NCBI GenBank assembly: GCA_009379955.1
Contig: WHST01000067.1
Coordinates: 1-35,198, forward strand
Reading direction: 5' to 3'
DNA from: Streptosporangiales bacterium
GTDB taxonomy: Bacteria; Actinomycetota; Actinomycetes; Streptosporangiales; WHST01
DNA length: 35,198 bases
Part shown: one piece after another, positions 21,700-26,616 of the stretch
Layout: each line of letters begins with the position of its first letter
How positions within the stretch are numbered: the stretch's first letter is position 1
Notes under the pieces: model-generated
Told to the model about the DNA's origin: nothing
What the model saw: only the letters and a program-made list of their open reading frames with translations
Databases searched by the model: none
Translations under genes and position numbers: made by a program

Positions 21700-22359
21700 G
21701 TGGAAGGCGAGCGGCGGTCCCGCGTCATGGCGGAGGAGTGGTCGGCCGGAGGCGGCGGAGCCCCGCTGCTCGCTGCGGCCGCACACGCGGCGGCGGCCGG
21801 TGCGGACCTCCGCGCGGTCGTGCTCGTGGAGGGGATGAGCGACCAGGCGGCGGTCGAGGCGCTCGCCGCGCGCCATCTCCGGGATCTCGATGCCGAGGGC
21901 GTGTCCGTCGTGCCGCTCGGGGGCGCCATGTCGATCGCACCCTTCCTCGATCTGTTCGGGCCGGACGGCGTCGACGTGCGACTGGCGGGCCTGTGCGACG
22001 TCGCGGAGGAGGGCTACTTCCGGCGCGGTCTCGAGCGGGCCGGTCTCGGCGCCGACCTCACCCGCGCCGACATGGAGGCGCTGGGCTTCTACGTGTGTGT
22101 CGAAGACCTGGAGGACGAGCTGATCCGCACCCTGGGCGTCGCGTCCGTGGAACGGGTCATCGAGGACCAGGGTGATCTCCGGTCGTGGCGCGTGCTCCAG
22201 CAGCAGCCCGCCCACCAGGGCCGGAGCGTCGAGGAGGTACTACGTCGTTTCATGGGCACCCGGTCAGGACGCAAGATCCACTACGCGCGCCTGCTCGTCG
22301 ACGCGCTCGACCTCGCCGACGTGCCGCGGCCGCTCGAGCGCGTGCTCGCGCACGTCTGA
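21700..22359 (+). CDS. Stand-alone TOPRIM-domain protein, OLD-nuclease type
   Basis: A 219-residue protein with a single TOPRIM-like domain. VVLVEGMSDQAAVEAL carries the conserved Glu (E44), SVVPLGGAMSIAPFLDLF is a typical next strand, and LAGLCDVAEEGYF has the D100/E pair of the DxD-like metal motif; VEDLEDELIR follows as in OLD-family TOPRIMs. The ATPase domain normally fused to it is absent here and not present in neighbours. It may be a nuclease or a nucleotide-binding protein. GTG at 21700 and ATG at 21727 are alternative starts. Confidence 0.75.
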   Translation: MEGERRSRVMAEEWSAGGGGAPLLAAAAHAAAAGADLRAVVLVEGMSDQAAVEALAARHLRDLDAEGVSVVPLGGAMSIAPFLDLFGPDGVDVRLAGLCDVAEEGYFRRGLERAGLGADLTRADMEALGFYVCVEDLEDELIRTLGVASVERVIEDQGDLRSWRVLQQQPAHQGRSVEEVLRRFMGTRSGRKIHYARLLVDALDLADVPRPLERVLAHV

Positions 22360-23281: not shown

Positions 23282-23301
23282 ACATCAACTTTGGTTGATG
23301 T
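23282..23301. promoter_or_regulatory. Palindromic operator candidate upstream of the LLM gene
   Basis: ACATCAAC-TTTG-GTTGATGT is a palindrome with 8-base arms and a 4-base spacer, 15 bases upstream of the LLM start. It overlaps a TTGACA on the minus strand (23299-23304). Its sequence differs from the CGTCAAG repeats next to it, suggesting a second regulator. Confidence 0.55.
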
Positions 23302-23316
23302 CAAGCGTTGAGGAGT

Positions 23317-23361
23317 CGTCAAGCTATCTTGACGACCGGGTGCCGTCAAGATAGCTTGACG
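23317..23361 (+). promoter_or_regulatory. Nested perfect inverted repeat with leaderless promoter of the HTH/Clp-N pair
   Basis: CGTCAAGCTATCTTGACG (23317-23334) and CGTCAAGATAGCTTGACG (23344-23361) are exact reverse complements, separated by nine bases. Each arm is itself palindromic at its ends (CGTCAAG-N4-CTTGACG). TTGACG (23329-23334) and TAGCTT (23352-23357) are spaced by 17 bases and look like -35 and -10 boxes; transcription would begin at or near the A of the ATG at 23364, so the mRNA would be leaderless, in line with the absence of a ribosome-binding site. The two arms cover the -35 and -10, the arrangement expected for repression by the encoded HTH protein. Confidence 0.75.
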
Positions 23362-23363
23362 GC

Positions 23364-23603
23364 ATGACGGTGGACCTCGGTGAGAGCAGACGGCTGATGG
23401 ACGCGGCGGCGGGCGCGGACCCGCAGGTGGGGCTGACGGCGGTGGTGGCGTTGCGGCAGTTGGTCGAGGTCCTGGAGGAGCTCCAGGTCGACAACGCCAG
23501 GGCGCGCGGGTGGTCGTGGCGCGACATCGCGCTCCGGCTTGGCGTGACCAAGCAGGGCGTGCACTACAAGCACGGCCTGCGCAGGCGCGCCGAGGGGTCG
23601 TGA
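23364..23603 (+). CDS. Small HTH DNA-binding protein
   Basis: A 79-residue protein. The first 45 residues form one or two helices with a leucine-rich stretch (LTAVVALRQLVEVLEELQV) suitable for dimerisation. A helix-turn-helix is at about residues 51-70 (SWRDIALRLGVTKQGVHYKH), followed by a basic end (GLRRRAEGS). The ATG lies two bases after a perfect operator-like repeat and has no ribosome-binding site, so translation is probably leaderless. Its stop overlaps the start of the Clp-N gene. It is a likely autorepressor of the pair. Leucine positions and fold are inferred. Confidence 0.85.
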   Translation: MTVDLGESRRLMDAAAGADPQVGLTAVVALRQLVEVLEELQVDNARARGWSWRDIALRLGVTKQGVHYKHGLRRRAEGS

Positions 23604-24310
23604 TGCGTGCTCTTCTCCTGCGGGTCGTGCACGCCGCGACCGGCGACGACGGGACCGGCGGATTGTGGAAGCGGCTCACGCCGGACGGTCGTGCGGTCCT
23701 GCGACTCGGCTTCGTCGAGGCTCGGGAGCTCGGCCACCCGTGCCTCGGCGCCGAGCACGTCCTGCTCGGGCTGCTGCGGCACGGTACGAGCGACGCGGCG
23801 GCGCTCGTGCGCGGCCGGGGCCTGGACCTCGACTCGGCGCGCGGCGAGCTGCTGCGGGTGGGGCCGTCGCTCGGTCCGGCCACCGACCCGGCCGCCGCAC
23901 TGGCCGGGATGGGCATCGAGGTCGAGCAGGTGCGCCGACGCCTGGCGGCCGGCTTCGGCAGCGAGGCGGTGCGCGCGGCGGAGTGGCGGGTGCGGCGCCG
24001 ACCACGCTGGCGTGGCGGTCATGCCCGGCCGGACGCGCTGTGCGTGCACCTGCTCGCCAACCGGTCGTTCGCGATCGCGACCCGGGCGGCGTCCAGGCAC
24101 GGCGCTGTCGGCATCGGGCCTGAGCACCTGCTGTACGGAGCCGTCAGCGACGCCCGCGATCCGCTCGGCACCGGCTTCGACCGCCGCAGCCTCCGCCGGT
24201 TGACCCGCGTCGGCTGGACGGCGGGTCGCCCGAATCCGCTGCGGCTGATCCTCGAAGCACGCGGCATCGACCTCACCGCACTGCTGGATGACCTGTGGCC
24301 GGGCGACTGA
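23603..24310 (+). CDS. Stand-alone Clp N-terminal (ClpR) domain protein
   Basis: A 235-residue protein without AAA+ motifs. Residues 25-85 match a Clp-N repeat: LTPDGRAVLRLGFVEARELGHPCLGAEHVLLGLLRHGTSDAAALVRGRG. A second, more diverged repeat is at about 150-230 (FAIATRAASRHGAVGIGPEHLLYGAV, LRLILEARGIDLTALLDDL). The middle is Arg-rich (VRRRPRWRGGHARP). In ClpA/C such domains bind substrates and adaptors, so a free one could be an adaptor, decoy or anti-adaptor of ClpC. The ATG overlaps the stop of the HTH gene (TGATG), implying coupling. No peptide signal or membrane helix is seen. Confidence 0.82.
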   Translation: MRALLLRVVHAATGDDGTGGLWKRLTPDGRAVLRLGFVEARELGHPCLGAEHVLLGLLRHGTSDAAALVRGRGLDLDSARGELLRVGPSLGPATDPAAALAGMGIEVEQVRRRLAAGFGSEAVRAAEWRVRRRPRWRGGHARPDALCVHLLANRSFAIATRAASRHGAVGIGPEHLLYGAVSDARDPLGTGFDRRSLRRLTRVGWTAGRPNPLRLILEARGIDLTALLDDLWPGD

Positions 24311-24317
24311 TCGCCCG
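24300..24317. terminator. Bidirectional hairpin between Clp-N and NmrA-like genes
   Basis: CGGGCGA-CTGA-TCGCCCG gives a seven-base stem with a four-base loop, spanning the stop of the rightward Clp-N gene and ending next to the stop of the leftward NmrA-like gene. Small, but its location between convergent genes supports a terminator. Confidence 0.5.
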
Positions 24318-25262: not shown

Positions 25263-26495
25263 TCACTGCCCAGGCCTGGCGATGGTCACCGACGCCCACT
25301 GGGTGGCCCACGCCGTTCCCGCGGTGCCGGCGTCGCCGTAGCCCCGGGCGAAGATGGTCATCCCGCCGAGGTCCGCGTCGCCCCACTGGATGACGTACGG
25401 CCTGGCGGTACAGCCGGTCACCTGGCCGGGCTTCAGCGTCCGCTTCACGCAGGTGAAGCCGCTGACGTAGTCGGCGCCGACGCGGACGCCGGTGAACGTC
25501 CGCCTGCCGACGTTCCTGGCGTTGAACCGGAACGTGATCTCGTCACCCTCACCGATCGTGCCGTCGCCGTCGACGTCCCTGGTGGTGGTCTTGTCGGTCA
25601 GGGTCATCGCGCCGTCGAGCGTGCGGTCGAGCGTCACCGACATGCCGGCCTTCTCCACCACATCCGGGCGGCCGGGCACGGTCGCACGCACGGTCGCCGT
25701 GTTCGCCATCGCGCCGGAGGCCTCGTCGGCGGCGGTGATGGTGTACGAGGGACGCGTGAGGCAGCGCGCCCACCCGCCGGCGCGGATGCCGTTCGCGAGC
25801 TCGTTCTCCTCGTGGTCCGCGCCGCCGTAGGAGCAGAGGTGGTTCACGCCGGTGTCGATGAGCTTGGGGTTGCTGATCGTGATCCTGCTGAAGTCGTAGT
25901 CGCCGTCGTTGTCGAGGTCGAGCCGGTAGTACGCGTGGTCGCCGGCGTCGGCGAGTCCGTTCTTGTTCGCGTCGAGGACGCCCGGCCGCACGTCGCTCAC
26001 CGTGTCGCCCGAGAGCTCCGCAGCGAGTCGCACGTGCGACGTGATCGGCGTGGTCGTCGACGCGGTCGCGGCGACCTGGTCGCCGTCGGCGGTCGCGGAG
26101 AGCGTCGCGTTGACCGTCACCTGGCCGGCACGCGCGTCGGAGCTGACGATGTAGTCGGTGAGCTCGGGCTCGCACGTCGTGGACTCGTCGGGAGCGATGG
26201 TCGTCACCGCGCAGTCGGCACCGTGCAGGTTCCTGTCCAGCTGCACGTCGACGTCGGTCAGGGCCCTGCGGCCGTTGTTGGAGACCGTGACGACGTACGC
26301 GATGCGGTCGCCGGAGTCGATCGATCCGCTGTCGTCGGTGTCCTGTGGGGTTGCCTTGATCGACATGACGACCGGGTAGCCGGCGTCCGGCGTGATGTCG
26401 GCGTACGCGCTCGGTGTGGCGACGATTCCTGTCGCTGCCAGCGCGCCGACCGCCACGAAGGTGCCGGATCGGACGAAGCGTCTGGTGGGTCGCAC
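25263..26495 (-). CDS. Secreted repeat protein with three Ca-binding-like loops (DUF11-type)
   Basis: A 410-residue exported protein. A signal peptide covers about residues 1-32 (basic RPTRRFVRS, hydrophobic FVAVGALAATGIVA, then PSAYA). Three repeats of about 125-132 residues follow, each opened by a D-x-[DN]-x-x-G acidic loop: 52-63 (DTDDSGSIDSGD), 175-186 (DANKNGLADAGD) and 307-318 (DVDGDGTIGEGD). Each repeat is an Ig-like fold of the DUF11/DUF7507 type with a Cys pair (95/108, 221/245, 349/362). Such proteins act at the cell surface in adhesion or as structural layers; no anchor is visible here. The GTG at 26495 has GGAGG five bases upstream; longer starts are unlikely. Confidence 0.8.
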   Translation of the reverse strand: MRPTRRFVRSGTFVAVGALAATGIVATPSAYADITPDAGYPVVMSIKATPQDTDDSGSIDSGDRIAYVVTVSNNGRRALTDVDVQLDRNLHGADCAVTTIAPDESTTCEPELTDYIVSSDARAGQVTVNATLSATADGDQVAATASTTTPITSHVRLAAELSGDTVSDVRPGVLDANKNGLADAGDHAYYRLDLDNDGDYDFSRITISNPKLIDTGVNHLCSYGGADHEENELANGIRAGGWARCLTRPSYTITAADEASGAMANTATVRATVPGRPDVVEKAGMSVTLDRTLDGAMTLTDKTTTRDVDGDGTIGEGDEITFRFNARNVGRRTFTGVRVGADYVSGFTCVKRTLKPGQVTGCTARPYVIQWGDADLGGMTIFARGYGDAGTAGTAWATQWASVTIARPGQ

Positions 26496-26616
26496 GGCTG
26501 CCTCCGTCGAGGAGTCTCCTGGGTGGGCGGCCGTACGACGCGCCTCCCCGATCGGCGGTTGGCGGCGACAGATGGCGTCCGGGCCAACGGTCGGCGAACA
26601 CACCACGTTCGCGAGG

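Follow-up and report, generated by a model that had tools for sequence, protein, structure and literature searches.

A split HTH/Clp-N gene pair of the ClpC2 kind behind tandem operators in a Streptosporangiales genome

The window, by which we mean the whole stretch of 35,198 nucleotides that was analysed, carries a perfect inverted repeat of 45 bp (23317-23361) immediately upstream of a gene for a small helix-turn-helix (HTH) protein and a gene for a Clp-N protein, which raises the questions of which protein reads the repeat and what the unit behind it responds to. The two 18-nt arms are 100% complementary and separated by 9 nt, and 100 dinucleotide-shuffled versions of the window contained no comparable arm pair. 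The initial annotation had described the arms as exact inverted copies that are each palindromic; the exact inversion held, while the palindromy was confined to the 7-bp half-sites CGTCAAG-n4-CTTGACG and did not include the central CTAT or ATAG.

Promoter, operators and genes of the window

The arms of the repeat form two operators that cover a promoter. The distal operator, CGTCAAG-CTAT-CTTGACG (23317-23334), contains the -35 box TTGACG (23329-23334, + strand) in its right half, and in relatives, too, its equivalent precedes the proximal operator by 27-29 bp. The proximal operator, CGTCAAG-ATAG-CTTGACG (23344-23361), holds the -10 box TAGCTT (23352-23357, + strand) and ends 2 bp upstream of the ATG. 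Both boxes had been pointed out within the repeat before and were confirmed, at a distance of 17 bp. Because the -10 box stops 6 bp short of the ATG at 23364, the transcript would most naturally be read as leaderless. The exact operator was found only at these two sites in the 6.6-Mb genome; all other matches carried two mismatches, and their number was approximately at the control level. A third palindrome, ACATCAACTTTGGTTGATGT (23282-23301), with the core ATCAAC-n4-GTTGAT, was observed at the start of the divergent gene encoding an F420-type LLM oxidoreductase. Its core differs from that of the operators and it lies outside the HTH/Clp-N promoter, being probably the site of another regulator.

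The first gene (23364-23603, + strand) encodes a putative HTH repressor of 79 aa, which is homologous to the N-terminal domain of ClpC2 and has four predicted helices (residues 5-16, 20-47, 52-59 and 63-78; model pLDDT 86). The last of these is the predicted recognition helix (23550-23597, + strand), in which Gly65 (23556-23558) and Tyr68 (23565-23567) are the predicted base readers. A Foldseek search with the HTH model returned nothing under E 0.001, and the top matches, to sigma-factor region 4, were uninformative.

The second gene (23603-24310, + strand) encodes 235 aa from its ATG, is preceded by the probable ribosome-binding site GAGGGG (23592-23597, + strand) and has an alternative GTG start at 23600. 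An overlap of three bases between the genes had been proposed, and this had to be corrected to one base for the ATG start (TGATG) or four bases for the GTG start. The protein matched Pfam Clp_N (E=1.7e-13) and the N-terminal domains of ClpC in the PDB (E as low as 5.5e-20), and no AAA+ domain was found in it with Pfam or NCBIfam, in agreement with the earlier description of a Clp-N protein without motor. The first Clp repeat (residues about 25-90; 23675-23872, + strand) was clear from both the Pfam and the PDB matches. The second (residues about 143-205; 24029-24217, + strand) is strongly diverged and was identified by alignment alone, because the predicted structure of the protein, with a pLDDT of 41, was unusable and was discarded.

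In addition to the Clp-N gene, genes for the F420-type LLM oxidoreductase and an NmrA-like protein neighbour the HTH gene. Further away, the window encodes an OLD-like TOPRIM domain protein (21700-22356, + strand; Pfam PF20469, E 5e-11) and a DUF11/DUF7507 repeat protein that is likely exported (25266-26606, - strand).

Distribution of the pair and reading of the operator

Members of the HTH family turned up in 85 of the 101 relatives whose genomes were searched, almost all of them from the same order, and, across the class, in 195 of 297 genomes. The initial annotation had made its proposal depend on conservation of the pair. Among 150 HTH loci that were read out, the Clp-N gene followed directly in 116 and was fused to the HTH part in nine, and neither arrangement was found in the remaining 25. 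Nearly all split loci have a pair of operators with a distance of 27-29 bp that stops 1-3 bp short of the ATG. A -35/-10 pair was present in all 108 split loci tested; the spacer measures 17-18 bp in 107 of them, the end of the -10 box is 6-7 bp away from the ATG in 106, and the arm equivalent to the -35 box of the window reads TTGACN in 100. The preservation of this geometry indicates that the promoter layout is under strong constraint throughout the class. The fused loci encode about 240 aa behind the operator CGTCAAC-n5-GTTGACG with the same promoter geometry and occur mostly in one family of the class; by operator and length, we infer that they are of the mycobacterial ClpC2 type.

The initial annotation had also suggested searching for the pair with the exact motif upstream. 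The pair proved to be common with related motifs, whereas the exact motif was found at the window pair only among 395 genomes: tandem GTCAAG-n4-CTTGAC sites were present in seven other genomes, none of them at another Clp-N pair, and the motif is therefore not diagnostic by itself. Where the adjoining regulator was readable, it was an unrelated short XRE-type gene, often together with a membrane protein, or, at locus L197, a RelI-like HTH gene. The XRE-type sites (L191-L196) lie in other families, near short regulators and membrane proteins, and represent an unrelated regulator class with nearly the same motif. A related-locus search with the HTH protein of the window returned a single locus, in Actinomadura craniellae.

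To answer which protein reads the operator, we compared protein and operator variation. The half-sites vary at bases six and seven (GTCA-N-N). When 279 alignment columns from both proteins were ranked, HTH residue 65 came top for base six and HTH residue 68 came top for base seven; these two residues are one turn apart in the predicted recognition helix. Ala or Gly at residue 65 went with GTCAA and Ser or Thr with GTCAG in 105 of 106 loci, a count that overstates independence, as do the others given here, because the sequences are related and effectively represent a few independent switches. Ser or Thr at this residue was gained about three times independently on the tree, and an independent-pairs test on the tree, with too few pairs, did not reach significance. 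The rule for residue 65 was fixed in writing before 60 new loci were fetched, and it predicted base six in all 53 of them in which operators were detectable. Lys or Arg at residue 68 went with C at base seven in 83 of 88 loci of the first set, and other residues rarely did; in the later set, base seven was C in 35 of 37 loci with Lys or Arg and in none of 16 with other residues. A finer rule, by which any other residue 68 calls for T at base seven, was often wrong, with Ala, Gln and Ser going with G, and had a strict score of 39 of 53.

The residue-base tables omit the distal arm that doubles as -35 box. Its sequence often remains TTGACA in loci whose helix favours CTGACA, and this accounts for most exceptions in the counts over four arms. 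Gly65 and Tyr68 together with GTCAAG in the window agree with the rule and are the single case of this combination. The covariation of residues 65 and 68 with bases six and seven shows that the small HTH protein is the reader of the operator. The proposal of the initial annotation that an HTH repressor and a free Clp-N domain make up an autoregulated unit is supported by this covariation and by the conservation of pair and layout, and autoregulation of the window unit is well supported.

Several loci depart from the common arrangement. At L201, L202 and L203 (genomes G020, G023 and G039), tandem operators of the GTCAAC type precede a Clp-N gene that has no HTH gene beside it. The HTH genes of these genomes lie elsewhere (L219, L220 and L096), encode helices with Ala/Lys and lack operators of their own, as if the distant HTH genes acted on the Clp-N genes in trans; linkage in one operon is therefore not essential. 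Conversely, related HTH genes without a Clp-N neighbour (L221, L223 and L224) start directly after a single operator, GGTCAATTACAGTTGACC, and are apparently leaderless too. In one clade (L088, L089, L097, L100 and L106), the two halves of each operator differ (AAGCAAC and AGTCAAC), and in several members the tandem sites jointly form a mirror image.

Relation to ClpC2 and other known systems

The initial annotation knew of no characterised system of this form, which no longer stands: mycobacterial ClpC2 (Rv2667, or Msm ClpC2 in M. smegmatis), described by Taylor et al. 2023 (PMC10030653), combines both parts in one fused HTH/Clp-N autorepressor with the same leaderless layout of tandem operators, CGTCAAC-n5-GTTGACG. 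Cyclomarin binds its Clp-N part, upon which repression is lifted, ClpC2 accumulates and the drug is sponged (PMC10030653); in a later paper, ecumicin and ilamycin were reported to bind ClpC2 without inducing it. The window pair and ClpC2 share a homologous HTH-type N-terminal domain, a Clp-N part without AAA+ motor, GTCAA-type tandem operators that cover the -35 and -10 boxes, a leaderless start and self-repression, the last two being predicted for the window. Comparison of the HTH family with the N-terminal domain of ClpC2 by hhalign gave 97.4% probability (E 1e-11); the 48 aligned columns take in the recognition helix. The family profile also matched 8ADA, the crystal fragment of ClpC2, with E 0.0046.

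The two also differ. ClpC2 is a single fused polypeptide and the window has two overlapping reading frames; the ClpC2 operator has CGTCAAC with a 5-bp spacer and the window operator CGTCAAG with 4 bp; the Clp repeats are 71-78 aa apart in ClpC2 and 123 aa in the window; and the cyclomarin-contacting Phe pair of ClpC2, F96/F172 (equivalent to F2/F80 of ClpC1), is replaced by Trp and Val. Because fusion and the exact ClpC2 operator are missing and the drug-contact residues are absent, we classify the window pair as a new, split form that would act in the manner of ClpC2, and not as ClpC2 itself. Split operons and the residue-base rule were found in no paper, in a literature search that covered few subscription papers, and this search turned up no experimental work on split pairs.

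The rule also bears on where ClpC2 contacts DNA. The crystal fragment of ClpC2 comprises residues 4-72 (PMC10030653), being limited to these because of proteolysis, and comparison with the fused sequences placed its end in 8ADA, at SMGV, directly N-terminal to TKQAAQKRF, which corresponds to the recognition helix. With this helix absent from the structures, the ClpC2 authors turned to the Clp-N part for the DNA contacts and arrived at R185 and R189, loss of which weakens binding (PMC10030653), whereas the rule places the reader in the HTH part. The position equivalent to R189 is Arg in nine of nine fused and in 19 of 113 split Clp-N proteins. In the simplest reading of these sequences, the HTH part would give specificity, and the Clp-N arginines would help where present.

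An HTH domain in ClpC2 is not new. It was named earlier in the paper on RelI (PMC13284704), the antitoxin that stands beside the RNase RelS in RelS-RelI (Rv2664) and whose similarity to the HTH region of ClpC2 was noted there. RelI belongs to the same small HTH family as the window protein (phmmer E 0.01; profile E 3.4e-5), but the partner in the window is a Clp-N protein and no RelS-type RNase gene adjoins the HTH gene, so that the pair was not assigned to RelS-RelI. Two further resemblances were weighed. An inverted repeat of the CTTGA/TCAAG type upstream of a chaperone-related operon superficially recalls the HAIR element of heat-shock regulation, CTTGAGT-N7-ACTCAAG, which is bound by the MerR-type regulator HspR; however, arm sequence, spacing and HTH family are unlike those of the window, and the window HTH protein had no MerR match in Pfam or NCBIfam. 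Stand-alone Clp-N proteins of the chloroplast ClpT and ClpC3 type have a Clp-N double repeat without motor, as is predicted for the window protein (PDB 4y0b and 8b9o were matched). They have another function, in the chloroplast, and are not known to have an HTH partner or an operator of their own.

Proposed function and alternative readings

We propose, with a probability of about 0.62, that the window pair senses and sponges a ligand in the manner of ClpC2, as an autoregulated unit of two genes. A dimer of the HTH protein would bind the two tandem operators, which form the -35/-10 region of the leaderless promoter, and silence its own operon, and the co-expressed Clp-N protein, which corresponds to the docking domain of ClpC1 on its own, would serve with it as co-repressor or sensor. 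If a small molecule directed at ClpC1, a protein inhibitor or an unfolded protein filled the Clp-N pocket, repression would be lifted; derepression would supply more Clp-N decoy and spare ClpC1. That occupancy of the Clp-N protein reaches the separate HTH protein by direct contact is a plain guess.

The ClpC2 precedent, together with the fact that most split Clp-N proteins keep Phe at the two positions in question, leads us to propose that the split family senses and sponges a ClpC1-directed ligand or client. The positions Phe2 and Phe80 of the ClpC1 drug pocket are kept in 75 and 67, respectively, of 113 split Clp-N proteins and in nearly all fused ones. For the window copy, which is a diverged member of the family, the ligand would be different and is probably not cyclomarin-like; it may even be absent, because Trp and Val stand at the Phe positions and the second repeat is barely recognisable.

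Alternatively, the Clp-N protein could be an adaptor or anti-adaptor of ClpC1 that delivers the HTH repressor to ClpC1P or shields it, so that the operon follows protease load. Removal of the repressor by such an adaptor had been suggested in the initial annotation. The Clp-N domain is the ClpC docking domain and is co-expressed with the small HTH protein from one overlapping operon, as this reading would have it; however, the protein contains no known adaptor domain of the MecA-like sort, Clp_N being the only domain found with Pfam and NCBIfam, and the precedent of ClpC2 is release from DNA upon ligand binding rather than degradation of the repressor. We regard an adaptor as unlikely, and a ligand- or substrate-binding decoy whose occupancy relieves repression is more likely.

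A simple HTH autorepressor that senses the signal itself, with the Clp-N protein as a stress-induced holdase or ClpC1 modulator outside repression, would fit both the setting of operator specificity by the HTH protein alone and the HTH genes that stand apart from the operator-bearing Clp-N genes L201-L203. The adjacency of the genes in 116 of 150 loci and their fusion in nine speak against it, as does the binding of the inducer by the Clp-N part in ClpC2, and it seems rather improbable. The window copy could also be in decay, a paralogue of a typical pair in the same genome (L057) and without any remaining sensing function; this could be suspected from its long branch, the loss of the pocket Phe residues, the divergence of the second repeat and the absence of an ortholog from the two same-genus genomes searched. 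Yet both frames are intact, the operators, which are perfect, match no promoter but their own, and under decay the repeat would blur first, which makes decay very unlikely.

The sensor-and-sponge reading has consequences beyond this locus. Among the drug targets in tuberculosis is ClpC1, and at least one of its natural inhibitors is made less effective by ClpC2. If split pairs are the common form, mycobacterial ClpC2 would be a fused representative of a module found throughout the class, and producers of natural products would themselves carry many such sensors, through which further ClpC1 ligands may come to light. With the residue-base rule, two HTH residues predict the DNA site in a pair that is widespread among actinobacteria, and the DNA reader and its specificity become directly testable.

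The segment between the Clp repeats is a candidate element for docking of the HTH protein. It measures 123 aa in the window and 75 in ClpC1; its length is 105-128 aa in most split proteins, 82-89 in two split clades and 71-79 in ClpC1, fused and stand-alone Clp-N proteins, and the values of 34-47 and 70-72 for a few split proteins appear to stem from cut or misaligned rows. As a marker of HTH pairing, the long segment is only suggestive, because its length also tracks clades. More speculatively, and with doubt on our side, there might be a large actinobacterial family of split HTH/Clp-N pairs, several per genome, each kept separate by a recognition-helix and operator code of its own and tuned to a different class of ClpC1-directed inhibitor or stress protein, in which the window copy responds to something other than cyclomarin and the inter-repeat segment docks the HTH dimer. 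The genome of the window does contain a second, typical pair on another contig, L057, with the operator CGTCAAC and the helix TRQAVHKK; since helices and operators differ, we infer that it and the window pair would operate without cross-talk.
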